This document shows positions 3,108 to 35,369 of a stretch of DNA of 46,591 nucleotides, piece after piece. Position 1 is the stretch's first letter, and every line of letters starts with the position of its first letter. The translations under genes and the position numbers were made by a program. The notes under the pieces were generated by a model. It saw only the letters and a list, made by a program, of their open reading frames with translations, did not search any database and was not told where the DNA came from. The DNA comes from an uncultured Oligoflexia bacterium (GTDB lineage: Bacteria; Bdellovibrionota; Bacteriovoracia; Bacteriovoracales; Bacteriovoracaceae), in NCBI GenBank assembly GCA_950061135.1, contig CATLVU010000007.1:1-46591 (forward strand), read 5' to 3'.

Positions 3108-3586
3108 GTTATTATATAATTTCAGGACATATTTTTACGGTATTCCTATCAATGTCACACCTAACCAGTATTAACTTTCCAAGTAAGATTCAAGATTTTG
3201 TAGGAGGCATCGAGGCAGATTTTAAGATATATGAGTTAAACAAGGGCAAAAGTCTTGTTTTTGAGCCAAAACAAAAAGGTTTTTCTCGAAACTTCATAAC
3301 CTTTTTAAAGGATCAGAAATATCATTATAACTTAAAATACAGTGAAGAGTTTTCAAACAAAGACATTGAAATAAAACAGGCACAAAAATGTACCTATTTC
3401 ACACTTTTAAAAGAAACACCTACTTATCAGTTATTTGAATGTCCAAAATCTTTATTTTTTATCAATAAATTAAATTCGCCTGTAAAGGTAAATGAATTAA
3501 CTATTAAATCTAAAAGTTATTTATCTAAGGGACCTCCCATCTTTCTTGATAAAAAAATGATCTATTATCAAGGAAGAGCATTATGA
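3089..3586 (+). CDS. TraK/VirB9-like transfer protein (putative)
   Basis: Exported-looking N-terminus, beta-rich body, sits immediately before VirB10/TraB-like gene. Confidence 0.4.
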   Translation: MEGQSMSYYIISGHIFTVFLSMSHLTSINFPSKIQDFVGGIEADFKIYELNKGKSLVFEPKQKGFSRNFITFLKDQKYHYNLKYSEEFSNKDIEIKQAQKCTYFTLLKETPTYQLFECPKSLFFINKLNSPVKVNELTIKSKSYLSKGPPIFLDKKMIYYQGRAL

Positions 3587-4365
3587 AGTGGTTATTTTTT
3601 CTTTGCATAAGCTTTGATGCTTTTAGTGGCTTTAGTGAAATATCAGAAATGAATCGCTATCAATACGATCAATCTCAAAAAAAGATTAAAACGACTAGAA
3701 AGAGTTTATCTTCTAGAAAAAACTCACTTGATGAACATACAAAAAACATACTTGAAAAAGATATAGCTATTTTGGAGCTGCTTAAAAGATCAGAAAAAAG
3801 ATTAATTGTTAGAAAAAAGGATGAAAAGATAACAGCTCTTTCAAGAATGCAGGGAGTTTTATTAAATTCAGTTCTAGCTATGAATATTAAACCGTCTAAG
3901 TTTATTGTCAGAATAAATGATGATTCAGATATCAGCGGCGCTGAACTTAGGTGTATAGGTTATAGCTTTGAAAAAAGAGTGCCAAGTAAGTGCGACTTAC
4001 TGGTGATTGATGATTCAGAGTATAAAGTTGACGTTGATATCTGGGATCTAGACGGCGCAGAAGGAATGATTGCTGATTATTATTACTCAGGTGAAGAAAA
4101 AGCTTTTTTAACTTCTTCTTTTGCATCATTTCTAGGGTCTACATTTGAAGTTGCTAAAGGAGGGATTAATTCTCCTTTTGGAACTTTTAATCAAAACAAT
4201 GCAAGAAATAAAATTCTAGAGGGATTAAGTAGCGTTTCTAAAAACGCTCAAAACAAGATTATTGAGTCAGGTGAAAAGAATTTAACTATTTCATATATAA
4301 ACTCAGGAAAACAAGTTCTTGTTTTCTTTAATAGTTCATTAAATTTAAGTGGAGATCAAAAATGA
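3583..4365 (+). CDS. VirB10/TraB/TrbI-like protein
   Basis: LLNSVLAMNIKPSKFIVRI...VPSKCDLLVIDDSEYKVDVDIWDLDGAEG...SYINSGKQVLVFFNSSLNL resembles the VirB10 C-terminal domain; ATGA overlap. Confidence 0.55.
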   Translation: MKWLFFLCISFDAFSGFSEISEMNRYQYDQSQKKIKTTRKSLSSRKNSLDEHTKNILEKDIAILELLKRSEKRLIVRKKDEKITALSRMQGVLLNSVLAMNIKPSKFIVRINDDSDISGAELRCIGYSFEKRVPSKCDLLVIDDSEYKVDVDIWDLDGAEGMIADYYYSGEEKAFLTSSFASFLGSTFEVAKGGINSPFGTFNQNNARNKILEGLSSVSKNAQNKIIESGEKNLTISYINSGKQVLVFFNSSLNLSGDQK

Positions 4366-4910
4366 AAATTATAATATTAGTCTTTATCAGTATTAATATA
4401 TCCTCATGTTCAACAATGAAAAAGACTCTCATTTATAGCTCGTTAGCAGGCGGTGCTACAGGAGCTATCGCTGGTACAACATTTAGTCCAAACAAGGAGA
4501 GCAAAGGAGCTAATGGTGTAGTATTTGGATTATTGGGAGCAGGAGTTGCGGCACTAGCAGGTCATGCTCTTTATCAAGATGATCCACGAAACTATAAACT
4601 AGATCAAATGCTCATAGACAAAAAGAAACAATTTAATGAAGACGAAATTGAAATAGGACTGGGAAACCTTAGTATCGATGCCAATTTAAATAAAAAAGAA
4701 ACATATCAAGTCCCTGTTAAGGATTTACCTGAAAAGCTAAGAGGTAAAGTAAATAAACAATTTTTAATTAAGTATCAATCAAAAGAGCGCTACGTAAAAA
4801 AAGGGAGCAAAACGTTTTATATACCAGCCTTTGATGTTTACGAACACGCTTATGGAGAGACGCCTGATTCAATCACAAACAATTTAAAAGGAGAGAAAAA
4901 TGAGCAGTAA
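4362..4910 (+). CDS. Lipoprotein with glycine-zipper-like segment (possible TraV/VirB7 role)
   Basis: Lipobox-like ISINISSC; AGGATGAIAGTTF...GVVFGLLGAGVAALAGHAL glycine-zipper-like stretch; inside T4SS operon. Confidence 0.55.
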   Translation: MKIIILVFISINISSCSTMKKTLIYSSLAGGATGAIAGTTFSPNKESKGANGVVFGLLGAGVAALAGHALYQDDPRNYKLDQMLIDKKKQFNEDEIEIGLGNLSIDANLNKKETYQVPVKDLPEKLRGKVNKQFLIKYQSKERYVKKGSKTFYIPAFDVYEHAYGETPDSITNNLKGEKNEQ

Positions 4911-6417
4911 AAAACAATCAAGTGATCTAGGGCTTGGGGAAGTTTTTATTCCAATAGTAGACTTATTATCAGAATTACTAGTTAAACTAACACATCTATT
5001 GGCAGCAGGACTTACTTTTTTATTTAGTAAGTATGTCCTCAATAAAACAAATAAAGGGAAAATAACAAAAATTGAAAGAGAGCATTTAAAAAGTAATAGA
5101 AGAACTTTATTAGACGAAGCTATTGGTTACTCAGTAACTTCAAAAAGAAATATTTTTGGATCAGAGATAAACAAAGCTACTCATACGGCAGTTGTTGGTG
5201 CAAGTGGGTCAGGAAAAACAGTTCTATTAGATGCCTTAATGTTTGAGGATATGAGACAAGGAAAACCTGTCGTGTTTATTGATCCTAAAGGAGATAACGG
5301 GTCACTTTTAAATTTTGTTAACCTTTGCAAACTTACAGGAAGAGATTTTTATGTATTTTCTGAATACTGGAATGGCGAAGGTGCTCGCTGTTTAAACCCT
5401 GTTAAAGATGGGTCTACAACAAATATAGCAGATAGAATTTTTAAATCCTTTACTTGGAGTGAAGAGCATTATGCACAAATATGTAGAGATGCTATAGAAG
5501 ATGCAGTATCTATCCTAAAGGAGTCAGATGAATATTTAAGTATTGAAAGTATTTATAATAAGCTTATTCAGATTAGTGATCCAAAAAATAAAAATGAAGT
5601 TCTATATAAGCGTGATGATATACAAGGTATCTTATCAAGATTAAAAAAGATAAATAAATCTGACTTTGGTGCAAGGCTTAATCAACAAGATGGACTCAGC
5701 TTTGCAGATATAAGAGATAGTAAAAAATGTGTTTATATAGGTCTTCCAGTACTCGGTTACGCTGAAATATCTAGAGCACTTGGAAAGATTATTTTAGGTG
5801 ATATCTCATATTCGGCCTATAAAACATACCGAGAAATTACTCCTGTTAATAATGATCAAATAAGCAAGATGGCGCTTTATATAGATGAGCTTTCAGCTGT
5901 AATTACAGATGAGTTTATTGAAATTTTAAATAAAGTAAGAGGAGCTAAAATAGAGCTGACTTTTGCTTTTCAGTCTCCAAGTGATATTGCAAAAGTAGAT
6001 AAGGAATTGTGTCTACAAGTTTTAGAAAATACATCTAATTGGTTTTTGTTTAAGCAAAGAATAAAAGAAGGAGCAAGCTTCTTTTCTGAGTCTATTGGCA
6101 CTATTGAAACAAAGAAACAAACTCTCAGAGTCAAGGATGGAGAAGAGCAATCTCAGGGGTCACAAAGAGTAGTTGAGGAATTAATAGTACATTCTAATGT
6201 ACTAAAAAACTTAAATGTAGGTCAGTGTATTTTTTTAAGACATTACCCAACTCAAGTTGATTTATTAAATGTTAAATATATTGATCCTAAAGTTGTTTGG
6301 GAGAACGTCAAATTTATAAATAAGGAGGTAAAGACAAACATTATTAACATTGAAAATTCAAATAAGGATTCTTTGGCAAAAAACAAAAGAAGAAACCTTC
6401 TAAGGGAGAATAGATAA
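4900..6417 (+). CDS. VirD4/TraD-type coupling protein ATPase
   Basis: Walker A VVGASGSGKTVLLDAL, FIDPKGD, Walker B MALYIDELSAVI, two N-terminal hydrophobic segments. Confidence 0.88.
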   Translation: MSSKKQSSDLGLGEVFIPIVDLLSELLVKLTHLLAAGLTFLFSKYVLNKTNKGKITKIEREHLKSNRRTLLDEAIGYSVTSKRNIFGSEINKATHTAVVGASGSGKTVLLDALMFEDMRQGKPVVFIDPKGDNGSLLNFVNLCKLTGRDFYVFSEYWNGEGARCLNPVKDGSTTNIADRIFKSFTWSEEHYAQICRDAIEDAVSILKESDEYLSIESIYNKLIQISDPKNKNEVLYKRDDIQGILSRLKKINKSDFGARLNQQDGLSFADIRDSKKCVYIGLPVLGYAEISRALGKIILGDISYSAYKTYREITPVNNDQISKMALYIDELSAVITDEFIEILNKVRGAKIELTFAFQSPSDIAKVDKELCLQVLENTSNWFLFKQRIKEGASFFSESIGTIETKKQTLRVKDGEEQSQGSQRVVEELIVHSNVLKNLNVGQCIFLRHYPTQVDLLNVKYIDPKVVWENVKFINKEVKTNIINIENSNKDSLAKNKRRNLLRENR

Positions 6418-7142
6418 TGAGTATCAATTTTATCCCTCAAGGTGTCTATGAAGACATCATAAATATTGTAGGCCAATGGAAAGTTGTAGACATGAAAAGC
6501 CTATCAGATATGTGCAACTATGAAATTGGTTATCACAATCTATTAAAGAAAGTTAGAACACTAGAAACACATGGATTAATCAAAGGAGTATTATTAGGCC
6601 GTAAAAATAAGCATATATACTTAACCAATAAAGGGCTTCAATACACAGGCTATGATTATACCTATGAAATTTGTGATGAAAATATAACTCATGATCTAAT
6701 TGTAAGTAGGGTTATACAAGTGCTTTTAGAACATAAAAACTTTGTAGACGGCAAACTGTTCCATCAGTTACCAATCGATATGATATATCCTGATGCGAAA
6801 CTTAGCTTAGTTAAAAATACTGAGTGTTTTGATCTCGCAATTGAAGTTGAATTAACACAGAAGGCACAAAACAGAATTAAGGAAAAGTATAGGCGATATA
6901 GCGTAGGGAAGAATTTTGACTATGGAGTTTTTATTACTAATAAGGAGAGATTATTTAAAACTTATGCTCGATATTTATTAGAAATGAAAGAAAGTGTTCA
7001 AGAAGCTATAATATTAATCTTAGAAAAACAGATGACAGCCACAAAGTTTAACCCTCAAAAAACAGAGTGTTTTTATCTCGGTAATAGCACCACTTTTAAT
7101 GATTTATTTAAATCAAATAGGAGTCAAAACACTGTCAAATGA
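6417..7142 (+). CDS. Replication-relaxation (Replic_Relax-like) winged-helix protein
   Basis: wHTH-like N-terminus (LKKVRTLETHGLIKGVLLGRKNKHIYLTNKGLQ), then HDLIVSRVIQVLLEH and a nuclease-like FDLAIEVELTQKAQNRIKEKYRRY; next to coupling protein. Confidence 0.55.
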   Translation: MSINFIPQGVYEDIINIVGQWKVVDMKSLSDMCNYEIGYHNLLKKVRTLETHGLIKGVLLGRKNKHIYLTNKGLQYTGYDYTYEICDENITHDLIVSRVIQVLLEHKNFVDGKLFHQLPIDMIYPDAKLSLVKNTECFDLAIEVELTQKAQNRIKEKYRRYSVGKNFDYGVFITNKERLFKTYARYLLEMKESVQEAIILILEKQMTATKFNPQKTECFYLGNSTTFNDLFKSNRSQNTVK

Positions 7143-7153
7143 AGTTAAACAAA

Positions 7154-7291
7154 ACTCGCCCCTGTGAAATTCTTTAGTAATTTCAAATCATTATCGAGAT
7201 GATTTCTGACCTCCCTCTCTCTACCAGTTCGAGAAGGAGGTCAAAAAGTCCCTCTCTATGATTTAGTAAACTTAAATAAACAGGGGCGAGT
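7154..7291 (+). other. Cloverleaf-like multi-stem intergenic element (candidate oriT or structured RNA)
   Basis: Perfect 12-bp outer stem ACTCGCCCCTGT(7154-7165)/ACAGGGGCGAGT(7280-7291) enclosing stems GAAATT/AATTTC (7166-7184), AAATCAT/ATGATTT (7185-7205) and GACCTCC/GGAGGTC (7208-7242). Confidence 0.75.
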
Positions 7292-7303
7292 AAGAAATAA
7301 GGA

Positions 7304-7717
7304 GTGAGAAAAATGAATATAGAAGAAGGAAAAAAAGAAGAGAACTTTGATGTTGGTGCGAAACATGTACTAGTTAAAAAACGTGGAAGAAAGCCTAAAA
7401 ATACAAATGCTGAATTCCAAATAAATCCAGACCAGACAAAGTTTTTTGTCGATCTATCAAAGGATAAAGAAAGCCTTAGAAAGGTATTTGATCTTCTTAT
7501 AGCTACTAATAAGAAAGACTATGGCAAAGAAATTACTTTTAAAGACTTAGCCTTGTTTGGAATTGAGAAAGTCACATTAAAGGATATTGAGAAGATTCAA
7601 GAAATAAGTTTAAGTAAAAAAGAATTACTAGAAAGAGCTTGGAGTGACTTCAATAAGAAGAATAAGCAAAGCTTATCCTTTGATGATTTCTTACTTAAGA
7701 AGGTTGGAATTAATTAA
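7304..7717 (+). CDS. Small basic protein, possible DNA-binding/mobilisation accessory
   Basis: AT-hook-like KKRGRKPKN; SD AAGGAGTGAG; location between structured element and ssb. Confidence 0.45.
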   Translation: MRKMNIEEGKKEENFDVGAKHVLVKKRGRKPKNTNAEFQINPDQTKFFVDLSKDKESLRKVFDLLIATNKKDYGKEITFKDLALFGIEKVTLKDIEKIQEISLSKKELLERAWSDFNKKNKQSLSFDDFLLKKVGIN

Positions 7718-7734: not shown

Positions 7735-8043
7735 ATGCAAAATACATACGAAACATTTATGGGAAGACTCGGTAAGAATCCTGAGCTTAAGTACACAAAA
7801 GAGGGAAAGCCTGTCTGCGATTTATCGGTAGCTATTAATAAGGGAAAAGATGTTCCTCCACATTGGAGAAAGGTCGTTGTTTGGGAAAAACAAGCTGAAC
7901 TTTGCTCTTTATATCTTAAGAAAGGATACGAAGTATTTGTTCAAGGGCAAGCTGAGATGAAGTCATTTAAAACCAACGAAGGTGGTACCAAAACGTATGA
8001 GGAAGTGAAGGCTCGATTGGTAGGATTTACAAATCTGAATTAG
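7735..8043 (+). CDS. ssb: Single-stranded DNA-binding protein
   Basis: FMGRLGKNPELKYTKEGKPVCDLSVAINKG...HWRKVVVWEKQAELCSLYLKKGYEVFVQGQ, OB-fold SSB signature. Confidence 0.88.
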   Translation: MQNTYETFMGRLGKNPELKYTKEGKPVCDLSVAINKGKDVPPHWRKVVVWEKQAELCSLYLKKGYEVFVQGQAEMKSFKTNEGGTKTYEEVKARLVGFTNLN

Positions 8044-8051
8044 GAGGAAAA

Positions 8052-8237
8052 ATGGAAAAGACTTTTTTAAATAAGACGTGGCTAAACACTGATGAGGCGG
8101 CTTTATATCTTGGTAGGACACGCAATGCTGTATGGCTTCTTGTTAGTAAGGGAATTTTGATTAAACGAAAGTGGAATCGAAGACTCTATTTCAAAAGAAC
8201 CGAGCTTGACCACTTATTAGATGCTTCATTTTCATAG
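8052..8237 (+). CDS. Excisionase-like helix-turn-helix protein
   Basis: LNTDEAALYLGRTRNAVWLLVSKGILIKRKWNRRLYFKRTELDHLL, MerR/excisionase fold; immediately upstream of integrase. Confidence 0.8.
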   Translation: MEKTFLNKTWLNTDEAALYLGRTRNAVWLLVSKGILIKRKWNRRLYFKRTELDHLLDASFS

Positions 8238-8246: not shown

Positions 8247-9380
8247 ATGGCCATAACTCAAGAAACTTTGCCTTGTGGCGATTCTCGATTTTCAGTTTAT
8301 GTAAATATTAGAAGTAGAGCTATGCCTCATATCAGGTGTCAAAAACGCATTAAAGGATTAAAGACTAAGGCAGAAGCAACTCGTAAAGAAAAGAAACTGA
8401 TCCAAGAACTTTCACAGAGAGTGGCTCAAGAAGAAGGGCATGGTTTCACTTGGAGAATGATCATTACCAAATGGGCGGCTGAAGTCGCCCAGCCTTCTTA
8501 TATTGAAAAGAGTTATAACCCAACAACTATTAGAGATTATGTTTCAATGCTTCATCGCTGGACTGAAAGTTGGCTTGATAGGCCTGCTACACAAATTACA
8601 AAGGGTGATGGGCGAGAAGTTTTTAATCGAGTAATTGAAGAAGGGAGAAGTAAGGCTTTTCAAAAGCGTCTTAAAAACACAATTAACATGATTTACAACT
8701 GGGCAATAGAGAATAGAGCAATTAGGGGAGTTTCCCATAGTCCTGTATTTGGTTTAAAGGTTGTTATTAAGCAAGATAAGAGACCCGAAATACTTAAGCC
8801 TCATGAAATACGAAAGCTTCTATATGAAGCTAAGGTACAGGATCATGACTGGTATTACATTTGGGCCATGGCACTTCTTACTGGAATGAGAAACGGTGAG
8901 CTATATGCTCTTAGGTGGGACGATATAGATTTTAGTGTATCTTTAATTAAGGTTGAGAGGTCATATAACTTTAAGATGGGGGAGTTCAAGGACACCAAGG
9001 CTGGTTACTGGCGTAGTGTACCTATTTCTTCTGAGCTTCGCTCCTTGCTTTTAGAGATAAAGAACCAATCTAAGTCTGAGTACGTTCTTCCAAGGCATAT
9101 TCTTTGGACTGGTGGTAAACAGGCTAAGATTCTAAAGATGTTTTGTAAATCAATTGACCTTCCCGAGATTCGTTTCCATACGCTGAGAGCTTGCTTCGCT
9201 ACTCAGCTTATTGGATCGGGAGTGGAGCCTGTTAAAGTGATGAAGATTTGTGGATGGAAGGATTTGAAAACTCTCGGAGTTTATTTACGGTTAGCTGGAA
9301 TAGATGAAAGAGGAGTTACTGAGGGACTTAACTTTTTACCTAGCAGTAATGTGGATAAGCAAATGCAGAGTTTATTGTAG
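8247..9380 (+). CDS. int: Tyrosine recombinase/integrase
   Basis: MALLTGMRNGELYALRWDDIDF, FHTLRACFATQLIGSGVEPVKVMKICGWKDLKTLGVYLR; catalytic R, HxxR and Y signature. Confidence 0.93.
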   Translation: MAITQETLPCGDSRFSVYVNIRSRAMPHIRCQKRIKGLKTKAEATRKEKKLIQELSQRVAQEEGHGFTWRMIITKWAAEVAQPSYIEKSYNPTTIRDYVSMLHRWTESWLDRPATQITKGDGREVFNRVIEEGRSKAFQKRLKNTINMIYNWAIENRAIRGVSHSPVFGLKVVIKQDKRPEILKPHEIRKLLYEAKVQDHDWYYIWAMALLTGMRNGELYALRWDDIDFSVSLIKVERSYNFKMGEFKDTKAGYWRSVPISSELRSLLLEIKNQSKSEYVLPRHILWTGGKQAKILKMFCKSIDLPEIRFHTLRACFATQLIGSGVEPVKVMKICGWKDLKTLGVYLRLAGIDERGVTEGLNFLPSSNVDKQMQSLL

Positions 9381-9575: not shown

Positions 9576-10640
9576 GTGCAAATTGAACAAATTAGCTTAG
9601 ATCAACTTTCTTTTGATCCGGAGAATCCAAGACTTCCTTCAAGCCTTAGAAAGGCAAAACAGAAACAAATTATTGAATGGATGTTACTTGATGCGTCATT
9701 GCTGGATCTAATGTCGTCTATAGCCCAGAACGGTTTTTTTGCAGGAGAACCAATTTTAGTTGTTAAAAATGGTAATGATTACCATGTTGTGGAGGGGAAC
9801 CGTAGGTTAGCTGCAACTTTACTTTTAAATAATCCAGGTATCTCTAAAACCAAGAGCCGATCAATTAGTGAAATTCTTGAATCATCTAAACCTGAAAATA
9901 TTCCTACAAGTTTACCTGCTGTCATTTTTCCATCTAAAAATGAAGTACTAGATTATTTAGGTTATAGGCACGTTACAGGTATTAAGAGCTGGGGGCCATT
10001 AGCTAAGGCTAGATATTTAAATGAGCTATATAATAGCTTGAAAGGAAGAGCTTCTTTTGAGGACAAATGTAGAAAGCTTGCACGTAAAATTGGTAGTAAA
10101 TCTCCTTATACAAAACAACTACTTGTTTCGTATTGGCTTTTTGAAATTTTGGAAGAAAATGGTTTTTATAAAATTAGAGGATTAAGTGAAGAAAGTATTG
10201 AGTTTTCTCACATGTATGACTCCTTAAGATTTACAGGTCTTAGAGAGTTTCTCAATATTGAATTCGAGTCACGAGATCCAATAAAAAACCTTGATAAGAA
10301 AAATTACAAAGAATATTGTACATGGCTTTATGAAAAGAGTGAGGGGCAAACTAGGCTTGGTGACAGTAGACAGCTGAAGGTTTTAAATAAAGTCGTTCAG
10401 TCTAAAGAGGCTCTACATGCATTTCGTTCGGGAAAAAGCCTTTCCGAGGCGAGTCAGTACTCCGATTACCCTGATGAACTTTTACAGAAACATATTTATG
10501 ATGCATACCAGATAATGAAAGAGGCCCTTGATGTGTCAGGTAGAGCAAATCATTTAAGTGAAGTTGATTTAGATAATTTAAAAAGTATTTCGAAGTTTTC
10601 TAAAATGATCCACTCATCATTCTTTAATGATGACTTTTAG
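9576..10640 (+). CDS. ParB/Srx-fold N-terminal domain protein
   Basis: IEQISLDQLSFDPENPRLPS...IAQNGFFAGEPILVVKNGNDYHVVEGNRRLAATLLL: ParB-like NPR and EGNRRLAA motifs; GTG start. Confidence 0.8.
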   Translation: MQIEQISLDQLSFDPENPRLPSSLRKAKQKQIIEWMLLDASLLDLMSSIAQNGFFAGEPILVVKNGNDYHVVEGNRRLAATLLLNNPGISKTKSRSISEILESSKPENIPTSLPAVIFPSKNEVLDYLGYRHVTGIKSWGPLAKARYLNELYNSLKGRASFEDKCRKLARKIGSKSPYTKQLLVSYWLFEILEENGFYKIRGLSEESIEFSHMYDSLRFTGLREFLNIEFESRDPIKNLDKKNYKEYCTWLYEKSEGQTRLGDSRQLKVLNKVVQSKEALHAFRSGKSLSEASQYSDYPDELLQKHIYDAYQIMKEALDVSGRANHLSEVDLDNLKSISKFSKMIHSSFFNDDF

Positions 10641-10652: not shown

Positions 10653-11885
10653 ATGAAGACTGGAAAGAAAAAATATACAAAAAAGAAAGCTTCAAAAAAG
10701 AAAGTCTCAAAGAAGAAAGCTTCAAAAAAGAAAGCTTCAAAAAAGAAAGTCTCAAAAAAGAAAGTCTCAAAAAAGAAAGTCTCAAAAAAGAAAGTCTCAA
10801 AAAAGAAAGTCTCAAAGAAGAAAGCTTCAAAAAAGAAAGTCTCAAAAAAGAAAGTCTTAAAAAAGAAAGCTTCAAAAAAGACAAAGAGAAAGCTAAGTGA
10901 TTATACCGTAAAGGTAACTGATTTATCGCTAAGTAATGTTAAGCCTTCATCTTTTTCCACGTACTACAACTATTGGGCAGACTTCTTAGAAATGTATTGT
11001 TTGTTTATAGATGGTCGAATTGCTTCAATAGATGATTTGGATGATATTAATATTGACTCACATGTTGGAAATGAGTTTGATGTTAATGGAATAGATGAAT
11101 CAATAACAAATAATGGTAAAATTGAGGATGTTTATAACTTTGTAGAGAGTAGAAAAGCATTATTTGGAGCAAGTTACCCATTTCAAATTGAGCCTAAAAC
11201 AAGAAAAATTACGTTAAAGAAGAATTTAGATAATAGTCACAAATTATACCTTTCATTACTGATAAGTAGTAATCCATCTTTTTTCAAAAAAAAATACCAT
11301 AAATGGACTAAAGAGTTTGAATCCTTTTCACGAAATATACTAAAAATATTTATGCCAAAAAACTCTATAGTAGCTAACTTTGGAGCAAGTGGAATAGTAA
11401 GCAATATTTTTAAGTCTAATAAAGTTAAACAAAGATTTATAGAATTATCTAAGCATATCAAAATTCCTACTACCGTAGAATTTGATAAAATACCAGATAA
11501 TAGGTCGGGGGATTTAGAAATTGATCTGGTATCTTGGAAAAAGTTTGCTCCTAGGAATAATGGAAGAGGTACAGTTGTAGCATTCGCTCAGTGCTCATGT
11601 GGAAAAGATTGGGTAAAGAAACAAAAATCAATTGCACAGGACACCCTTCGGAAGTATTTAGCTATCAAAGATAATATACTTTCATTTATTTTTGTTCCTC
11701 AAGCCTTAAGAGCTGTGGATGGTTCTTGGGAAAAACCGTATGAAATAGAGAGTGTAATTGTAATTGATAGATTAACGATCCTGCGCTCATTCAAAAAAGC
11801 TGAACTTGAAAAAATGTATAAAGCACATTTCAAAAATCTGCTTGAGCCTTTGTTAAAGATATCATTTAATCATTTTGATATTTAA
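10653..11885 (+). CDS. Lysine-repeat-tailed protein with putative PD-(D/E)XK-like nuclease core
   Basis: N-terminal tandem KKKAS/KKKVS repeats; C-terminal NRSGDLEIDLVSWKKFAPRNNGRGTVVAFAQCSCGKDWVKKQ resembles a nuclease core (D...AQCxxGKdW). Confidence 0.5.
   Translation: MKTGKKKYTKKKASKKKVSKKKASKKKASKKKVSKKKVSKKKVSKKKVSKKKVSKKKASKKKVSKKKVLKKKASKKTKRKLSDYTVKVTDLSLSNVKPSSFSTYYNYWADFLEMYCLFIDGRIASIDDLDDINIDSHVGNEFDVNGIDESITNNGKIEDVYNFVESRKALFGASYPFQIEPKTRKITLKKNLDNSHKLYLSLLISSNPSFFKKKYHKWTKEFESFSRNILKIFMPKNSIVANFGASGIVSNIFKSNKVKQRFIELSKHIKIPTTVEFDKIPDNRSGDLEIDLVSWKKFAPRNNGRGTVVAFAQCSCGKDWVKKQKSIAQDTLRKYLAIKDNILSFIFVPQALRAVDGSWEKPYEIESVIVIDRLTILRSFKKAELEKMYKAHFKNLLEPLLKISFNHFDI
10678..10880 (+). 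repeat. 15-bp tandem repeat (TCAAAAAAGAAAGYT-type), about 13 units
   Basis: Repeated cttcaaaaaagaaag/tctcaaaaaagaaag units, in frame, encoding KKKAS/KKKVS. Confidence 0.9.
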
Positions 11886-21609: not shown

Positions 21610-23781
21610 ATGGAAACGATTTCTCTTAAAGTTGGGGGAATGAGCTGTGCCAGTTGTGCCAGCTCAATTGAAAAGGAAGTTGCATCCTTAGATGGTGTAA
21701 TCAGCTCTAGTGTCAATTTTGCTGTTGAAACTGGAAAATTTGAAGTACAGGACAATAACGTTAGAGATAAAGTTATCGAGAAGATCAAGTCTCTTGGTTA
21801 CTCAATAGCTGATGATGAAAAAGTGGCTACTAATGTAGAGAAAATTGATGAGAACTTTTCTAAGTTTGTGATTTCAATCGTTTTAGCAATTATGATATTT
21901 GCTTTGGCAATGTGGCCTCTAAAAGGCTGGCCTTCTAAAGATGTAAATTGGTATTTGCAATTGGCCTTATGTGTTCCTATATGGGGATGGGTTGGATTAA
22001 AGTTTCAAAAATCTCTTCTTCACTTCTTAAAAAGTGGAAAGTCTAATATGAATACTCTTATAGGGCTTGGGACTACAGCTGCTTTTCTTTATAGTTTTTT
22101 TATAACTATTTTCTCTGAATATTCAGTTCAAATGGGGCTTACCCAAAAAGTTTATTTTGAAGCAGTCGGTTTTATTATTTCTTTTGTTTACTTAGGACAA
22201 TACTTTGAGGAAAAAGCGAAGAGAAAGACTACAGAGGCCCTAAACTCCCTTTTTCAGCTAAGTTCAAAGAATGCGACGCTTATAACTGATGGAGAGTTAA
22301 GAGAAGTTAAGATAGAAGATGTTAAAGTTGGTGATGTTATTAGGGTGAAGCCTGGAGAAAAGTTTCCTGTTGATGGTAAAATTATCAAAGGAGAGTCAGC
22401 GATTGATGAATCTATGATTTCTGGTGAACCAATTCCTGTGACAAAACAAGCTGGGGATCAACTTTTTACAGGAACAATAAATGGTGACAGTGTTATTGAG
22501 TATCGAGCAACTAAAGTAGGGAATGATACTTTCCTGTCGCAAATAATTAATTTTGTAGAACAGGCACAGAACTCTAAACCAGAAATTCAAAAATATGCAG
22601 ACAAGATAAGTTCAGTTTTTACTCCTGTAGTAATAGTTTTCTCAATTGTTACATTTCTATCTTGGTTTTTTCTAGGCCCTATGCCCATTTGGGGAAATTC
22701 AGTTTCTAACTTTATTGCTGTTCTTGTTATCGCTTGTCCATGTGCTTTAGGACTAGCGACACCAACTGCTGTAGTCGTTGCTACTGGTAGAGCGTCCTTA
22801 AAAGGTTTATTGATTGGTGGTGGAGATATCATTGAAAAAGCAATTGGGATTGATACGATTATATTTGATAAAACTGGAACTATAACTGAAGGAAAACCTT
22901 CTGTAATTGAAGTGAATATAAAAGATAGTGATGAAGCTATTTTGAAAGAAGTTGCATCAATTGAACAGTTTTCTGAACATCCTCTTTCTAAAGCCATTGT
23001 GAACTACTCTAAAGAACAAGGGATTGAACTAGAAGAACCAGATAGCTTTGAGATAGTAAAAGGGAAGGGCTTGAAAGCTGAAATTGATGAAAGTGACTAT
23101 TTAATCGGAAATGAGAAATTATTAAATGAAAATAATGTGTTTCTTGATAACAATATTATGACAGACCAAGTTGGAAGCTTTGTGTTTATTTCAAAAAATA
23201 AGAAGCATGTAGGTTCAATTATAGTTGGAGATAAAATCAAAGACTCTTCCAAGCATACAATAGAGCAACTTAAAGAACGTGGCATAGAAACTTGGATGAT
23301 AACAGGTGATAATGAGATTATTGCTAAAGCTGTATCCAAAGAACTAGGCATTGATCATTTTATAGCAAATGCTCTTCCCCTTGAAAAATCAACTAAACTA
23401 GAAGAGCTTCAAAATAGTGGTAAGACTGTCGCTATGGTTGGGGATGGTGTTAATGATGCTCCTGCATTAGCAAAGGCTGACCTTTCAATGGCGATGGGAA
23501 CTGGTACTGATGTGGCCATAAATGCTTCAGACGTTACAATTGTAAAGGGTGATCTTTCAAAGGCACTAGAGTTTATTGAGTTGTCTGAAGGGACTATGAA
23601 GATTATTAAACAAAATCTTTTCCTTTCAATGGTCTACAATACATTATTGATTCCAATTGCAGCAGGTGTTCTTGTTATTTTCGGTGGGCCTATGATGCCT
23701 CCTGTTTTAGCAAGTGTCGCTATGGCATTAAGTAGTATTTCTGTTGTTTCCAATAGTCTTAGAATTAAGAATATTATCTAA
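21610..23781 (+). CDS. copA: P1B-type copper-translocating ATPase
   Basis: GMSCASCASSIEK, CPCALGLATP, DKTGTITEGKP, SEHPLSKAI, GDGVNDAPALAKAD. Confidence 0.96.
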   Translation: METISLKVGGMSCASCASSIEKEVASLDGVISSSVNFAVETGKFEVQDNNVRDKVIEKIKSLGYSIADDEKVATNVEKIDENFSKFVISIVLAIMIFALAMWPLKGWPSKDVNWYLQLALCVPIWGWVGLKFQKSLLHFLKSGKSNMNTLIGLGTTAAFLYSFFITIFSEYSVQMGLTQKVYFEAVGFIISFVYLGQYFEEKAKRKTTEALNSLFQLSSKNATLITDGELREVKIEDVKVGDVIRVKPGEKFPVDGKIIKGESAIDESMISGEPIPVTKQAGDQLFTGTINGDSVIEYRATKVGNDTFLSQIINFVEQAQNSKPEIQKYADKISSVFTPVVIVFSIVTFLSWFFLGPMPIWGNSVSNFIAVLVIACPCALGLATPTAVVVATGRASLKGLLIGGGDIIEKAIGIDTIIFDKTGTITEGKPSVIEVNIKDSDEAILKEVASIEQFSEHPLSKAIVNYSKEQGIELEEPDSFEIVKGKGLKAEIDESDYLIGNEKLLNENNVFLDNNIMTDQVGSFVFISKNKKHVGSIIVGDKIKDSSKHTIEQLKERGIETWMITGDNEIIAKAVSKELGIDHFIANALPLEKSTKLEELQNSGKTVAMVGDGVNDAPALAKADLSMAMGTGTDVAINASDVTIVKGDLSKALEFIELSEGTMKIIKQNLFLSMVYNTLLIPIAAGVLVIFGGPMMPPVLASVAMALSSISVVSNSLRIKNII

Positions 23782-23803
23782 TTTCAGATACTTGTATTGA
23801 GAT

Positions 23804-23820
23804 TTACCCTGATGGGGTAT
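23804..23820. promoter_or_regulatory. CsoR-type operator
   Basis: TTACCCTGATGGGGTAT upstream of csoR. Confidence 0.6.
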
Positions 23821-23946
23821 GTATAAAATATAGGGGTATAGGGTATTAATGGCGCGATGCGGAGCGTTAGGCTAATCTATCTTCAGATAATGAAGGCAAT
23901 GACTCTGTTGGCTTTGGAATTAAAATAAGGTTTTAGAGAGTAAGTT

Positions 23947-24231
23947 ATGGAAAAAAAAGGTGCTGATCACAAATCACATTTAGCAAGAGTTAATAGAATT
24001 GAAGGTCAAGTAAAAGGCATTAAAGGTATGATTGAAGAAGGTAAGTATTGTGTAGATATACTTACCCAAATCAAGGCAATTAGAAGTGCTCTAAAGGGAC
24101 TTGAGCTTCAAATCCTTGAAGGGCACGCAAATCATTGTTTGTTGAATGCAGTAAAGTCAGGCTCTAAAAAAGATGCAGAAGAGAAAATTAATGAGATCAT
24201 GGAGTTGATTAAGAAATCATCTAAGTCTTAA
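23947..24231 (+). CDS. csoR: CsoR/RcnR-family metal-sensing repressor
   Basis: HLARVNRIEGQVKGIKGMIEEGKYCVDILTQIKAIRSALKGLELQILEGHANHCL. Confidence 0.9.
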   Translation: MEKKGADHKSHLARVNRIEGQVKGIKGMIEEGKYCVDILTQIKAIRSALKGLELQILEGHANHCLLNAVKSGSKKDAEEKINEIMELIKKSSKS

Positions 24232-24764
24232 TAATGAAAAACATGTCTTCTAACGACCCTGCTCAGCTCAAATACTGATAGTCCTCCAATCGTTGCACCC
24301 ACTAACCAATACAGAGCAAGACTTAAGTATACTTCAGAGCCTAGTATAATAAAGCTAGATAGAGCGATTATTGAAATAGAAGTATAATAAAGAATTCTTG
24401 ATTCCTTTATTTTCCTTACTTCACTAGATTTTAATATGTACGCTGCAAAGAGAGCACCACTTCCAATAAAAATTGATCCGCAAATGGCCATACAGATATT
24501 CTCACCAAATTTATGATGAAAGTAATGAAATAGTTCATAATTATTCGTTAGGCTAAGACTAAACTGTGGACAAAAAGTAAGAGTAACGGCTCCAATAAAG
24601 GCTTGAATACCTAATAGTTTAGAAAAAACAGTTTTATGGGATGGATCGAGATCAGCTTTAACAAAGTTTAAAATTCTATTGCTCAACTCTTCTGGCGGGT
24701 TAACTCCTTTAGAGTTCATAAAATCCAAGAAGTCCTTATTGTCTTTGTTGTTAGGATCAATCAT
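24228..24764 (-). CDS. Membrane protein, putative anti-sigma factor
   Basis: Cytoplasmic N-terminus then several TM segments; translationally coupled (overlap) to ECF sigma gene. Confidence 0.55.
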   Translation of the reverse strand: MIDPNNKDNKDFLDFMNSKGVNPPEELSNRILNFVKADLDPSHKTVFSKLLGIQAFIGAVTLTFCPQFSLSLTNNYELFHYFHHKFGENICMAICGSIFIGSGALFAAYILKSSEVRKIKESRILYYTSISIIALSSFIILGSEVYLSLALYWLVGATIGGLSVFELSRVVRRHVFHY

Positions 24765-25294
24765 TTCGCTTCTCCTATTAACTTAGCTTTGAGTTTTTTT
24801 ATACCTCTTGAAACTAACTTTCTCGAATTAGCCTCTGAAGTTTTTAATGCCTTAGAAATGTCAGTAAAATCTTCTTCTGAGTAGTAACGTAACTTGATTG
24901 CCAGTTTCTCCTTTTCAGAAAGTGACTTAACAGAGTCGAGATCGATTTTATCGTCGATCTCCTTAGTTTCGCAAATGAGTTGATCTTCATTTATAGAAAC
25001 GAGCTTTATTTTGCGACTCTTCTTAACAGAGTCGAGTAATTCACTCCTACAAATTGTATATATCCACTTTAAAAGTGGGTGTTTGCTACTATATAGATGT
25101 CGTGAATTATGAAATTTAACAAAAATACTTTGAAATATATCTTCGATTATATTCTTATCGGACAACCTTTTATCAAGGTAGCTATAAACTCGATCTTTAT
25201 GTCGTAAATAAATAACTTCAAAGGCCATATTTTCACCGTTCTTATAAAGCTCCATGAGCTTTTCATCTTCTAAATGTGAAAATGGATTTCCCAT
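24761..25294 (-). CDS. ECF-type RNA polymerase sigma factor
   Basis: FEVIYLRHKDRVYSYLDKRLSDKNIIEDIFQSIFVKFHNSRHLYSSKHPLLKWIYTICRSELLD...LSEKEKLAIKLRYYSEEDFTDISKALKTSEANSRKLVSRGIKKL. Confidence 0.88.
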   Translation of the reverse strand: MGNPFSHLEDEKLMELYKNGENMAFEVIYLRHKDRVYSYLDKRLSDKNIIEDIFQSIFVKFHNSRHLYSSKHPLLKWIYTICRSELLDSVKKSRKIKLVSINEDQLICETKEIDDKIDLDSVKSLSEKEKLAIKLRYYSEEDFTDISKALKTSEANSRKLVSRGIKKLKAKLIGEAK

Positions 25295-25325
25295 CCTCTA
25301 CCTCTTATTACGACGAGTGTGCCTA

Positions 25326-25419
25326 TTTTGTGACAAAAACTTTTCAAAAGTACCCCGTGGGGGTATAACTAATTAAAAATACTATATTTTTATTAAAAAA
25401 GTAAGTTTTTTGTCACAAA
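25326..25419. promoter_or_regulatory. Divergent promoter region: inverted GTTTTT(T)GTCACAAA motifs flanking a CsoR-type box
   Basis: TTTTGTGACAAAAAC (25326-25340) and GTTTTTTGTCACAAA (25405-25419) with GTACCCCGTGGGGGTAT at 25350-25366 between. Confidence 0.6.
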
Positions 25420-25425
25420 TATGAA

Positions 25426-25956
25426 TTGGCTCTCGTAACAGGGAGTGAAGACTATTTAATTGGGGGATCTTTGAAAGCTCTATTGTTACTTTTTGCATTT
25501 ACAGCCTCATCTCATGTATGGGGACATGGAGGTGAAGATCATTCTAAAGATGTTAAGCAACCTAAAGTCGTAAAGCCAAATGTGGAAATAGAAGAAAAGT
25601 ATATAAAAATAAATCAGGAATATATTAAAACTGTAAAACCAATCTTTAAAAAATCCTGCTTTGACTGCCATGGAAATACAACAGTGTACCCTTGGTATTA
25701 TAAAGTCCCCGGTGTGAAGCAGCTAATTGATGATGATGTAAATGAGGCAAAGTCTCATCTCGATTTTTCGAAAGACTTTCCATTTATAAGCCATGGGACA
25801 CCAATAAAAGACTTAGATGCTATCAATAAATCTATAAATAACGAATCCATGCCACCATTTCGTTATCAAATTATGCATGGGGATAAAAAACTCACTAAAG
25901 ATGAAATCAAACAGATTAAAAAATGGATAAGAGAATCAAAAGAGATGTTAAAATGA
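25426..25956 (+). CDS. Exported haem-binding (CxxCH) domain protein
   Basis: VKPIFKKSCFDCHGNTTVYPWYYKVPGVKQLIDDDVNEAKSHLDFS, as in haem-binding (Haem_bd) domains; exact start uncertain. Confidence 0.7.
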   Translation: MALVTGSEDYLIGGSLKALLLLFAFTASSHVWGHGGEDHSKDVKQPKVVKPNVEIEEKYIKINQEYIKTVKPIFKKSCFDCHGNTTVYPWYYKVPGVKQLIDDDVNEAKSHLDFSKDFPFISHGTPIKDLDAINKSINNESMPPFRYQIMHGDKKLTKDEIKQIKKWIRESKEMLK

Positions 25957-27152
25957 TGAAATACTTTGCCGTTCTAATATTTATAAACTCAATAGAGGCT
26001 AAGGCCATTACTTTCGAGGATGGGATCAAAGCTCTTCAGTCGCATGAGAGTGTTGATTCGATGAAGTTTAAATCAAAAGCATTAAGTGAAGAGGCTGAAT
26101 TGAAAGGATCATGGGGTGATCCAATGTTCAAGGTTGCAGCTAAAAATTTTCCTCAAGATAGTTTAAAAAATAATGAAACCCCCATGACTGGGATTGAGTT
26201 TGGAGTTTCACAAAAAATAGCTTTAACAACAAAATATGGAAATATAGAAGATGCATTTAAGTCTCTTTCAAATGCATATCAATTTGAAGCAGATGATAAG
26301 AAAGAAGCTCTCACTAAGGCTTTTTGGGAAATGTTAATTCTCAAAAGGAAAGTATCTGAAGAACTAGAAATTTTAAAAGAGAACAATGCATGGATTTCAA
26401 GAATTCTTAAAGTTAGTAAAAGGTTATACTCAACAGGAAAAATATCTCAACAAGCTCTTCTTGATATTCAAATTAGAAAGTCTGAAATTGAAAGTGAAGT
26501 AAACAATAAGAAGTATGAACTATCTCAAATCGGCGATCGTTTAAAGTATTTAATAGGAACTTCTGATGTTGAAGAAGCTTCTATTCCTTGGAAGTCTCTA
26601 AAAACAAACTCAGATAAATTAAAAGACAATAAAGAACTCAGCCTAAAAGAAAAGCTAAAAGCTAAAGACTTGGCATTAACTGCTTCTAAGCAAAACTATG
26701 TTCCTGATTTAACTGTATCACTGGGGTACACAAAAAGATCAAATATTGATGGGAACGGAGACTTTGTTGGCGCAGCTATTAGTTTTCCTCTACCTTTCTC
26801 TGGAGAAAAGTATTCTAAACATGGGCAAGCGGTTCAAGAGAAGTATATGGCCGTTAAAAACGTTGAAAACTATAAGAGGCAAAAAAATAGAGACATTTCT
26901 GTACTCCGTAAAGAGATTGATAAACTTTTAGGAGAACTGAGTATTTTAAAAGAGAAAACTATTAAGTTTGCTCGTAACTCAAGAGAAATAACTGCTAAGT
27001 CTTATGGCCTCGGCAACTCTACTTATGTCGAATTACTTCAAAGTGAGCTTAAATTACAAAAAATCCTCATGCTCAAAGTAATGCTAGAAGCAAAAAGAGA
27101 TATTAAAAGAGCAACATTAAAGTATGTTAAAGGAGAGTCCTTAAATGAATAA
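25923..27152 (+). CDS. TolC/CusC-like outer-membrane efflux protein
   Basis: Long coiled-coil OEP repeats; upstream of RND adaptor and pump; KSYGLGNSTYVELLQSELKLQK. Confidence 0.8.
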   Translation: MDKRIKRDVKMMKYFAVLIFINSIEAKAITFEDGIKALQSHESVDSMKFKSKALSEEAELKGSWGDPMFKVAAKNFPQDSLKNNETPMTGIEFGVSQKIALTTKYGNIEDAFKSLSNAYQFEADDKKEALTKAFWEMLILKRKVSEELEILKENNAWISRILKVSKRLYSTGKISQQALLDIQIRKSEIESEVNNKKYELSQIGDRLKYLIGTSDVEEASIPWKSLKTNSDKLKDNKELSLKEKLKAKDLALTASKQNYVPDLTVSLGYTKRSNIDGNGDFVGAAISFPLPFSGEKYSKHGQAVQEKYMAVKNVENYKRQKNRDISVLRKEIDKLLGELSILKEKTIKFARNSREITAKSYGLGNSTYVELLQSELKLQKILMLKVMLEAKRDIKRATLKYVKGESLNE

Positions 27153-28533
27153 GTTAATCAGTGTTATATTTTTAATGTTTCTCCTTGTTATAGGTGTTTC
27201 ATGTCAAAAAGAGAGCTCTATTGATTCAAGCAAAACTCATGAAGGGCATGAACACTCTAAGACTAAGGTTTATTATACTTGTTCTATGCACCCACAGATT
27301 AAAGAAAAAGAAATGGGGAAATGTCCAATATGTCATATGAATCTAACAAAGATTGAAGTTGACGATGAAGAAGATATTCAAGCGTCGGCTGTAGTTCCTG
27401 AAAAAGATATTTGGCAATGTAAAGACTTTCCTGATGTGACAAGCGAAACTGAAGATGTTTGTCCTATGGATGGTACTCCGATGGTCAAAAAACCAAAAGA
27501 AAATAAAGCTGCAAAGGTTGTGGCAAAAGTAAAACTAAGAAAAGCTCAGTTAAAACATTTTGAACCAGACTTCTTTCCTGTAACGACGATGAAAATGACT
27601 AAGAAAATTAGATTACTTGGTTCTGTCCTCCAGTCCGAGGAAAAGGAAAGCAATATCCCTGCTCGTATTGGAGGGAGAGTTGAAAAGGTTTATGTTAAAT
27701 CAACTGGTAGTATGGTTAAAGTTGGTGATCCTGTGATTGATCTATATAGCCCTAAACTAATTACTGCCGGAGAAGAATATTTACTAGCTCGAAAAAGTTA
27801 TGCAAAAAGCAAAACTAAAGAATTTAAAGATATGCTAGATCAGAGTATTGAAAGACTCAAACTTTGGGGAATCAAGAGATTTCAATTTGAAAATTGGTAT
27901 AAAACAGGGAAAGTTCCAAGACAAATTACAATTTATTCAAACGCAACAGGTATAGTTCGTTCAAGAAATGCTACTGTTGGTAAATACTTTAAAGAGGGCC
28001 AAAACTTCTTTGAATTATCGGACTTAGCAGATGTTTGGGTCGAGATGGATGTATATGAACATGATTCATCATTAATTAAGATCGGACAAAAAGTAGATTT
28101 AGAATTTACTGCTATTCCGGGGGAAAAGCTTGTAGGTGAAATAGATTTTGTAAACCCTGTCCTAGATCAAAAATCAAGAACATTAAAGGTTAGAGCTACT
28201 ATTGAAAATGCTTCAGGCAAGCTAAAGCCCGGAATGATCGCAAATGCAGTTTTAAATGTAGATATAGAAGGAATGCCTCTTGTTGTACCAAGAACGGCAG
28301 TGATTGATACCGGTAAAAGAAAAATCGTCTGGGTCAAGATTTCTGGTAAGAACTTTCAGGCAAAAACTGTTCATGCAGGTTATGAATCTGAAGGTTACGT
28401 TGAAATTAAACATGGATTAATGGAAGGCGAAGAAGTCGTGATTGAAGGAAACTTTCTATTAGATGCTCAAGCACAACTTTTTGGTGGCTACGAAGATATG
28501 AAAGAATCCAAAACTTCAGGTCACAACCACTAA
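27145..28533 (+). CDS. cusB: RND periplasmic adaptor with heavy-metal-binding domain(s)
   Basis: VYYTCSMHPQIKEKEMGKCPICHMNLTKIE; barrel-sandwich ARIGGRVEKVYVKSTGSMVKVGDPVIDLYSPKL. Confidence 0.9.
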   Translation: MNKLISVIFLMFLLVIGVSCQKESSIDSSKTHEGHEHSKTKVYYTCSMHPQIKEKEMGKCPICHMNLTKIEVDDEEDIQASAVVPEKDIWQCKDFPDVTSETEDVCPMDGTPMVKKPKENKAAKVVAKVKLRKAQLKHFEPDFFPVTTMKMTKKIRLLGSVLQSEEKESNIPARIGGRVEKVYVKSTGSMVKVGDPVIDLYSPKLITAGEEYLLARKSYAKSKTKEFKDMLDQSIERLKLWGIKRFQFENWYKTGKVPRQITIYSNATGIVRSRNATVGKYFKEGQNFFELSDLADVWVEMDVYEHDSSLIKIGQKVDLEFTAIPGEKLVGEIDFVNPVLDQKSRTLKVRATIENASGKLKPGMIANAVLNVDIEGMPLVVPRTAVIDTGKRKIVWVKISGKNFQAKTVHAGYESEGYVEIKHGLMEGEEVVIEGNFLLDAQAQLFGGYEDMKESKTSGHNH

Positions 28534-28542
28534 GGGCAAGCT

Positions 28543-31500
28543 ATGATTCAGAATTTAATAGAATTATCTATTCGTAATCGTGCAGTTGTAGTTATAGGAT
28601 TTGTCTTTATAGCGTTGCTGTCAATATTCAGTCTTAAAACAGCTAGGATTGATGCTATTCCTGATATCGGTGAGAATCAACAGATTGTTTTTACTGAATG
28701 GGCCGGAAGATCACCTAAAGATATTGAAGAACAAGTTACATATCCTTTAAGTGTAATGATGCAAGGGATTCCGGGGGTAAAAAACATTCGTGCGACTTCT
28801 GCATTTGGTTTTTCTATTATATATGTGATTTTTAAAGATGATGTCGATTTTTACTGGAGTAGAAGCCGAGTCTTAGAGAAGTTATCAACTGCTTCATCTG
28901 AACTTCCATTAGGAGTAACTCCTAATATGGGGCCGGATGCTACGGGATTAGGGCAGATATTTTGGTACACACTTGAAAATGAGAAAGGTGCATCAAAGCC
29001 AAAGTCACTAGCAGAGCTTAGATCAATTCAGGATTTCTATGTACGCTATCTCCTTCAAGGTGTGGAGGGAGTAAGTGAAGTCGCTAGTATTGGTGGATTT
29101 GTAAAAGAATATCAAATAGATGTTGATCCAAATAAACTATTTGCCTATGACGTTCACTTCTCGAAACTTATTAAGTCAATCCAAAATAGTAATATTGATG
29201 TTGGTGCAGAGGTAGTCGAGGATGGCGATAGAGAGTTCGTTGTTCGTGGTAAGGGCTTCTTTAAAAGCATTTCTGATATTGAGAATGTCGTAGTTGCAGT
29301 AAAGAATAATTCACCAATTAGAGTAAAAGACTTAGCTAGTGTAAACATTGGGCCGGGATTTAGAAGAGGTGCACTTGATAAAAATGGTGTTGAGTCGGTT
29401 GGTGGCGTTGTAACTATGCGATTTGGTGAGAATCCGAAAGAAGTTATTGATAATGTAAAAGAAAGACTTTCAATTATCGAAAAAGGACTTCCAAAAGGTG
29501 TTAAGCTTGTACCTTTCTATGATCGAACAGAAGTAATCGAGCGAACAATTGGAACAGTTTATACAGCTCTTGGACAAGAAATTATCATAACCATTATCGT
29601 TATCCTTTTATTCTTACTTCATTTTAAATCGTCAATTTTAGTTTCTCTTACACTCCCTTTTGGTGTGGGTATTAGTTTTATTTTAATGAAGTTTTTAGGA
29701 ATAGACTCAAATGTAATGAGTTTGTCTGGACTTGTTATTGCCATTGGTTCAATGGTTGATATGGGTATTATTATGACTGAGAATATATATTCTCATTTGG
29801 CCCAAAATCCTAATGTGTCTAAAAAAGATAGAATTGAAATCATCGTTAAATCAGCTCGTGAAGTTGGGCCAGCAATTCTAACTGCTGTTGCAACGACGAT
29901 TGTTACATTTTTGCCAGTATTTGGACTTGAAGGAAGTGAAGGGAAATTATTTGGGCCACTTGCTTGGGCAAAAACTCTAGCAATGTTTGGCTCTGTCGTT
30001 GTAGCAATCATTTTAGTTCCTGCATTGTCAGCATATTTATTAAAGGGAGAGCTAAAACCAATTGAGAAAAACAAGGTTAGTCTATTTATAGTTGAAAAGT
30101 ATAGACCAGCTTTAAATTGGATGCTTGATAATAGAAAAATATTTGTTATTTTTCCTACAATTATTTTTATGCTTGGAATGTTTGCCTATTCAAAATTAGG
30201 TAAAGAGTTTATGCCGTCTCTAAATGAAGGTGAAATTCTTTATATGCCTGTAACAACTCCCGATGTGAGTATGACAAAGGGAAGAGAACTATTAGCCTAC
30301 ACTGATAAGAAGCTAAAAGAGCATCCTCTCGTAGCTGATGCCATAGGAAAGCTCGGTAGAGCAAATACTGCAATTGATCCAGCTCCTGTGGCCATGTTTG
30401 AAACAGTCATTAAGCTTGTTCCTGAAGATCAGTGGCCTGATGGTGTATCTATTTATGACATTATGAGTGAGCTTGATGGAGAGCTTCAAGTACCGGGCCT
30501 AGTAAATGCATGGTTGTTTCCAATCGAAAATAGAATTGCCATGATCTCCACAGGAATTAAAACTCAAATTGGTATCAAAATATTTGGTGATGATTTAAAA
30601 ACTCTCGAAAGTATTGCTTCAAAGATAGGTAAAGAAGTTGAGAAAGTTAAAGGCGCTTATGGTGTATATGCTGAACAGATTACAGGAAAGCCTTATATAG
30701 AGTTTGATATCGACCGAGTTGCTGCCAGTAGATATGGAATCAACACCGGAACAATTAATAAGATACTTCAGACAGCAGTTGGGGGAATGACTATTGGCCA
30801 ATTCTATGAAGGGCGAGAACGATACCCCATACGAGTTAGATATAAGAAAGAGCTTAGAGATAGAATTGATGAGCTTAAAAAAGTCTTAGTGCCGAGTCCT
30901 TTAGGTCAACATATACCGCTTTCTGAACTAGCTGATATTCAAGTTGTTACTGGCCCTGCTGCAATACAGTCAGAAAATGGAATGCTTAGATCGCTTGTTC
31001 TTTTAAATGTTCAAGGCAGAGATTTAATTGGTTTTGTAGAGGAAGCAAAAGAGCATATTGAAAAGAATGTAGAGCTTCCCAAAGGATATTCGATTGTTTG
31101 GGCAGGACAATATGAGAGTCAGGTTAGATCAAATCTTATTCTTATTTATTTTGGTATCAAAAATTTAAGAAATGCTGCAATCATTTTTAGTGCAGTACCA
31201 ATTGCCTTCGCAGGAGGCTTAATTCTTCTTTGGATAGGTGGATTTAATACTTCTGTTGCTGTTTGGGTTGGGTTTATTGCTCTGTTTGGTATTGCGGTTG
31301 ATGATGGTGTTGTGATGATGACGTATCTTCAAGAAGCGATTAAGAGTCATAAACCTAAAGATTGGGATGGTCTAAAAGAATGTATTTTAGAGGCTGGTTC
31401 AAGAAGGATTAGACCCCTTGTTATGACTACAACAACTACAGTTGTAGCTTTAATTCCAATTATGTGGTCAACAAGTACAGGTAGTGAGGTTATGAAACCA

Positions 31501-31617: not shown

Positions 31618-31626
31618 CTAATTACT

Positions 31627-32235: not shown

Positions 32236-32240
32236 ATATT

Positions 32241-33586: not shown

Positions 33587-33610
33587 CTAGACGAAGAAAA
33601 GGTTGATTTA

Positions 33611-34459: not shown

Positions 34460-34467
34460 AGTAGACT

Positions 34468-35332: not shown

Positions 35333-35369
35333 CAAAGAGCTTTTTTAACGGTTTTAAAGGAGGTCTAAG

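Follow-up and report, generated by a model that had tools for sequence, protein, structure and literature searches.

The question raised by this locus is what function is served by a conspicuous 138-nt intergenic structure (positions 7154 to 7291) that lies between conjugative transfer genes and the integration genes of a mobile element from predatory Bdellovibrionota. Since oriTs are usually too diverse to be found by sequence search, little-studied phyla have ICEs and mobilizable islands for which no start site has been assigned. An earlier note on this DNA had listed an oriT among several suggestions. Sequence comparison with related elements and with plasmids of Bacillota leads us to conclude that the structure is very probably the oriT core of an ICE that uses a MOBC relaxase, the DNA at which the element is nicked to start its passage to another cell.

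The window (the whole stretch of 46,591 nucleotides that was analysed) starts at base 1 of contig C7 of a 2.75-Mb genome, the nearest relatives found for which are Bacteriovoracaceae/Halobacteriovoraceae MAGs. T4SS genes, a coupling protein gene and a gene for a 241-aa protein are located upstream of the structure, while genes for a protein with a conserved K-K-R-G-R-K motif (KKRGRK protein), an SSB, an excisionase-like protein and an integrase follow downstream:

3583..4365, + strand: TrbI/VirB10-like transfer protein (PF03743, 1.3e-9)
4900..6417, + strand: VirD4/TraG-type coupling protein, T4CP (TraG-D_C, 5.7e-8; HerA and TrwB domains)
6417..7142, + strand: predicted MOBC-type relaxase (winged helix + PD-(D/E)XK), 241 aa (motifs, hhalign, AF2 fold)
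7313..7717, + strand: KKRGRK protein, conserved, 134 aa (start codon ATG at 7313); may be an auxiliary protein of the relaxosome
7735..8043, + strand: single-strand DNA-binding protein, SSB (PF00436, 7.9e-23)
8052..8237, + strand: excisionase-like helix-turn-helix protein (PHROG excisionase, 0.0022; HTH_17 in counterparts)
8247..9380, + strand: tyrosine integrase of the element (PF00589, 1.7e-20)

The coupling protein and relaxase genes lie directly 5' of the structure, and the gene order is the same in relatives. In most ICEs of the family, the KKRGRK gene is found 3' of the structure. Its product had no Pfam or PHROG match, and the predicted model was all-helical, of low confidence and too uncertain for a fold search; as judged from gene position only, the protein is a candidate auxiliary relaxosome protein. 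Contig C15 of the same genome has a related module, and another KKRGRK copy lies on C130. For the ICE in the window itself, a search for att repeats gave no convincing candidate.

Several other genes in the window were observed. The product of the gene just past the integrase (9576-10640) has a ParB-like part at its N terminus that is similar to PD-Lambda-5_A of a defence system (PADLOC, 1.3e-23), and the gene is possibly defence cargo or a neighbour; another (10653-11885) codes for a protein that begins with a long repetitive lysine-rich KKKASKKKVS stretch. Positions 21610-36789 contain genes for a metal P-type ATPase, CusA-like RND efflux and cation efflux, together with a second tyrosine integrase (35722-36789), and are probably another mobile metal-resistance island. 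An McrB-like AAA protein followed by an McrBC component (37963-41743) makes up a type IV restriction pair.

The 241-aa protein has an N-terminal winged helix, and its H-D, P-D and E-x-E-x-T-x-K-x3-R motifs are kept across Bdellovibrionota. When compared by hhalign with four Bacillota MOBC relaxases, it aligned over 190 columns, catalytic motifs included (probability 94, E 1e-7). The Pfam Replic_Relax profile matched just one of the 13 relaxase members (E 0.0012). An AlphaFold (AF2) model with a pLDDT of 85.7 had FokI as its best PDB match, followed by winged-helix proteins; the MOBC family of relaxases consists of winged-helix/PD-(D/E)XK nickases (PMC12857230). As judged by motif, profile-profile and predicted-fold comparison, the protein is a MOBC relaxase.

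The structure itself is bounded by a long-range outer stem, P1, and contains a middle stem, P3, and a central hairpin, P4:

7154..7165, + strand: 5' arm of outer stem P1, ACTCGCCCCTGT, perfect complement of 7280-7291
7185..7191, + strand: 5' strand of middle stem P3, AAATCAT, pairs with 7258-7264
7207..7243, + strand: central hairpin P4, TGACCTCC (7207-7214) with GGAGGTCA (7236-7243), 94% paired
7258..7264, + strand: 3' strand of middle stem P3, ATGATTT, pairs with 7185-7191
7280..7291, + strand: 3' arm of outer stem P1, ACAGGGGCGAGT, perfect complement of 7154-7165

The perfect 12-bp outer stem claimed in the earlier note is exact, and the inverted repeat spans 138 nt. P1 apart, the 46.6-kb window has no perfect inverted repeat of at least 12 bp that spans 110-185 nt; such repeats averaged 0.67 per simulated window, and none of these had at least 8 G/C of 12. 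The minimum free energy of the region, calculated as RNA, was -52.1 versus -25.7 ± 3.7 for shuffled sequences (z -7.2, none of 200 as good), in agreement with the earlier claim of a non-random arrangement. A search of the window against Rfam revealed no match above the gathering score.

Covariation was scored on the 13 closest relatives, in which P1, P3 and P4 together are 93.9% paired. Both sides of a pair had changed in 41 cells of these three stems; shuffles gave 14.5 such cells, and slid structures no more than 7. P1 is 95.9% paired and includes both-sided changes; the long-range P3 helix is 90% paired, with both-sided changes at six of its seven pairs; P4, 94% paired, has compensatory changes at two inner pairs. 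Covariation and conservation of the stems, the absence of which the earlier note had set as the refuting condition, were both observed.

The earlier note had described the interior as three consecutive hairpins. Hairpin 1 (GAAATT/AATTTC) and hairpin 3 (GACCTCC/GGAGGTC) are present in the sequence, the former being 55% paired in relatives, but hairpin 2 (AAATCAT with ATGATTT at 7199-7205) is not upheld. It is 78% paired, largely via G-U, with both-sided changes at one of seven pairs, and competes with the pairing of the same strand to 7258-7264 (90% paired in relatives). The long-range P3 pairing in the 13 relatives results in one long nested hairpin. We therefore rejected the three-hairpin cloverleaf on covariation and not on energy, because relatives separate the two pairings while folding energy hardly does: with the three hairpins enforced, the RNA energy was -49.6 versus -52.1, and DNA parameters on the + strand favoured a local form. 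A switch had also been proposed to operate through a second copy of CCCTCTCTA, which is located at 7250-7258 (the copy beside stem 3 reads CCCTCTCTCTA); this proposal was not supported, the alternative pairing being kept only in the closest relatives. Among internal mismatches, G-T was not in excess over A-C, but the A-C side consists largely of a single conserved C-A/C-T mismatch. Because too few mismatches were informative, wobble asymmetry was dropped as a test of strand.

Bdellovibrionota and the MOBC plasmids of Bacillota alike retain the TGAC[C/T]...GTCA of P4, and the strand that follows TGAC contains a candidate nick region:

7214..7226, + strand: conserved pyrimidine strand into C-N-A-C, proposed nick region (nick predicted within 7214-7227)

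In nearly all relatives, and also in pAM373, ATCC 29212 plasmid 2, pLIS52 and LR962614, the spacing between TGAC and this AC hardly varies. The conserved motif, where the nick is predicted, lies ca. 60-110 bp from the direct repeats described below; TraX-pAD1 binds direct repeats ca. 70-120 bp from nic and shows no covalent intermediate (PMC12857230).

The structure is flanked by two further elements:

7113..7156, + strand: four 11-bp direct repeats (iterons), TCAAATAGGAG / TCAAAACACTG / TCAAATGAAGT / TAAACAAAACT, starting at 7113, 7124, 7135 and 7146
7288..7344, + strand: C-free purine-rich strand after the structure, a 57-nt C-free run

In 71 non-redundant relatives, an 11-nt period was detected in the 70 nt 5' of the inverted repeat (z 13.0 at lag 11, 8.4 at lag 22 and 5.3 at lag 33). 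The iteron sequences vary among lineages while the period is constant, as would be expected of a DNA-binding array on one helix face. We propose that the iterons are double-stranded DNA sites for the relaxase winged helix or for an auxiliary protein. On the other side, the first 50 nt 3' of the structure average 1.7% C in 81 elements, and relaxase-less copies that are not followed by a KKRGRK gene have 0-8% C over 100 nt, with one run of 148 nt. The C-free purine-rich strand, 57-148 nt long, is seen even where no gene starts (from ca. 8871 in L152 and from ca. 5519 in L150), and a C-poor strand also follows the structure in Enterococcus MOBC plasmids. The simplest guess is that the tract provides an unfoldable single strand.

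From relatives, 92 distinct intergenic regions were taken; an outer inverted repeat of 110-185 nt was found in ca. 80 of them, directly 3' of the relaxase gene. The outer-stem arms are diverse (53 different 8-nt arms among 60 elements), and wobble pairs occupy 13 of 600 outer-stem cells, a count biased by a search that allowed wobbles and extended stems through them. A covariance model, R1, built only from Bdellovibrionota, had matches in 101 of 369 Bdellovibrionota genomes, of which weak ones outside this family (E above ca. 1e-6) may be chance hairpins. In the Bdellovibrio-type ICEs L160 and L164, the order coupling protein-relaxase-structure is kept and a large serine recombinase serves as the integrase; the structure is the same with either kind of recombinase and is therefore not tied to the integrase. 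Copies with no relaxase or integrase nearby were seen twice on one 13-kb contig (L148:7168-7309 and 8297-8440) and at L149:8870-9012, and may be decayed or plasmid-borne. In L013 (1384-1464) and L020, the 5' half of the structure is replaced by unrelated sequence; L013 has a transposase-like ORF and looks like a case of a transposase gene abutting the structure. A literature search, conducted mostly without subscription papers, found no paper on oriT or MOBC ICEs in Bdellovibrionota.

Several strong R1 matches had no relaxase or coupling protein gene nearby. L147 (5175-10723) is a 5.5-kb element between 57-bp repeats at a tRNA-Glu gene, which contains a Fic-domain gene (PADLOC SoFic, 7e-42), two uncharacterised genes, the structure, a helix-turn-helix protein gene and an integrase gene. 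L152 is a 4.4-kb element between 54-bp repeats at a tRNA-Gly gene, with the structure beside xis-int. In L150, L151 and L156, the structure is located beside an integrase gene on incomplete stretches. Both L147 and L152 are bounded by att repeats, code for their own integrase, lack a relaxase and carry a conjugative-type oriT-like site, the combination that defines an oriT-only IME (MGI/iOriT). Their gene content is as expected of oriT-only satellites. Islands that carry only an oriT, similar to that of the helper, are known for SXT/MGI (PMC5704250).

Matches to R1 were also obtained outside the phylum, at intergenic sites of Bacillota plasmids, from Enterococcus and Listeria: LR962614 (E 8.9e-9), ATCC 29212 plasmid 2 (1.4e-6), pAM373 (1.4e-4) and, weakly, Listeria seeligeri pLIS52 (0.013). 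The oriT of the pheromone plasmids pAM373/pAD1 was reportedly published by Francia and Clewell in 2002. In pAM373 (NC_002630), repeats of 12 bp are found between the coupling protein and relaxase genes, together with an outer repeat of 18 bp that spans 142 nt; the inner hairpin is 25 bp long and contains TGACC, and a stretch of 66 nt is free of C. The other three plasmids have the same module, likewise between those two genes, consisting of repeats, an inverted repeat of at least ca. 140 nt, an inner TGACC hairpin and a C-poor strand, and homologous relaxases; that of pAM373, one of the four used in the hhalign comparison, matches Pfam Replic_Relax. The central hairpins of Bdellovibrionota and of the plasmids have TGAC[C/T] and AC at a nearly fixed distance in common. 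In PLSDB, pAM373 and ATCC 29212 plasmid 2 are typed MOBC and pLIS52 is typed non-mobilizable. An SSB gene lies directly 3' of the MOBC-type relaxase gene in pLIS52 (L170:3396-4759), echoing the SSB gene near the window's relaxase.

Strong support for the suggested oriT comes from the neighbourhood, the iterons, the resemblance to oriT regions of MOBC plasmids, and the att-bounded satellites that have only the structure and xis/int. Three features of a MOBC-type oriT are found here: an adjoining relaxase gene and VirD4-type coupling protein gene, a relaxase of predicted MOBC type, and direct repeats beside a large inverted repeat. Another suggestion of the earlier note was a structured leader RNA, in which a fold of the transcribed + strand would control translation of the operon of 7313-7717 and SSB. 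The structure does end 5-10 nt before a ribosome-binding site and folds strongly as RNA, and covariation alone cannot separate RNA from DNA. However, att-bounded satellite copies occur without the 7313-7717 and SSB genes, the Bacillota counterparts are placed differently relative to genes, and the upstream 11-bp iterons point to double-stranded DNA binding. Together with the rarity of wobbles, the lack of a G-T excess and the absence of an Rfam match, these observations make a leader RNA improbable.

We regard as slightly less credible still a single-strand origin or single-stranded DNA promoter (sso/Frpo-like) that would not be nicked and would instead prime complementary synthesis or drive early SSB/xis-int expression in the recipient. 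The downstream SSB gene, the conserved hairpin and the C-free strand on its 3' side are compatible with such a site, and its function may coexist with an oriT in the same region. It is the oriT, however, that accounts for the iterons and for the position beside the relaxase and coupling protein genes; the homologous region in Bacillota is the oriT region; and relaxase-less satellites would still need an oriT, the structure being the only shared site found in them. The least probable alternative, to which we give almost no credence, is an att or accessory recombination site of the integrase. The structure precedes xis-int in ICEs and satellites alike, but the att repeats of L147 and L152 are at tRNA genes and not at the structure, the structure is the same in elements with serine recombinases, and it is present on Enterococcus plasmids that have no adjacent integrase.

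For a MOBC-type oriT, the following sequence of events can be proposed. The relaxase (6417-7142) would bind the iterons (7113-7156) by its winged helix, possibly with the help of the 7313-7717 protein. Opening or extrusion of the long nested inverted repeat would let P1-P3-P4 present the conserved TGACC...CTCTCTAC strand, which the PD-(D/E)XK domain is predicted to nick, the position being likewise a prediction. The nicked strand would pass to the VirD4-type coupling protein (4900-6417) and then through the T4SS, and the hairpin would again mark the end for resealing. On the right, the C-free tract may remain single-stranded and unfolded, a plausible aid to strand loading or to coating by SSB.

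A broader reading, which we put forward tentatively and consider rather less likely to be right than wrong, is that MOBC oriTs are one cross-phylum three-part module (11-12-bp iterons, a nested hairpin with TGACC...CNAC, and a C-free strand). A relaxase that reportedly makes no covalent intermediate would recognise this module in its folded, single-stranded form, the unstructured C-free strand would serve the coupling protein as a loading track, and a very small oriT-only satellite family would parasitise these ICEs in predatory bacteria. In practical terms, a covariance model from one phylum is able to locate the oriT region of a second; a nick region is predicted as well, and satellites of 4-6 kb that have no relaxase gene come to light in predatory bacteria; the handling of DNA by MOBC relaxases without a covalent bond becomes easier to test.

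Among known systems, the mobilization region of CloDF13 codes for the coupling protein MobB and the relaxase MobC and, like the window, has a small MOBC relaxase adjoining a coupling protein. The covariance model had no match in this MOBC plasmid, the deposited mob genes of which read broken; with this exception, all features examined fit an oriT of the MOBC kind. MGIVflInd1, which is mobilised by SXT-type ICEs, resembles L147 and L152 in having an integrase, an excisionase and an ICE-like oriT and no relaxase. It differs in that its helper is MOBH, while the presumed helper of L147 and L152 is a MOBC ICE, and these two elements are only 4.4-5.5 kb long. pAM373 shares with the window direct repeats, a large inverted repeat of ca. 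140 nt, an inner TGACC hairpin with apical CNACG and a C-poor strand, as well as a MOBC relaxase and a VirD4-type coupling protein as neighbours. The window's site follows the relaxase gene, has 11-bp repeats and a C-rich inner hairpin with a conserved mismatch, and belongs to an ICE of Bdellovibrionota, whereas that of pAM373 lies between the coupling protein and relaxase genes of a plasmid, with 12-bp repeats and a perfectly paired inner hairpin.
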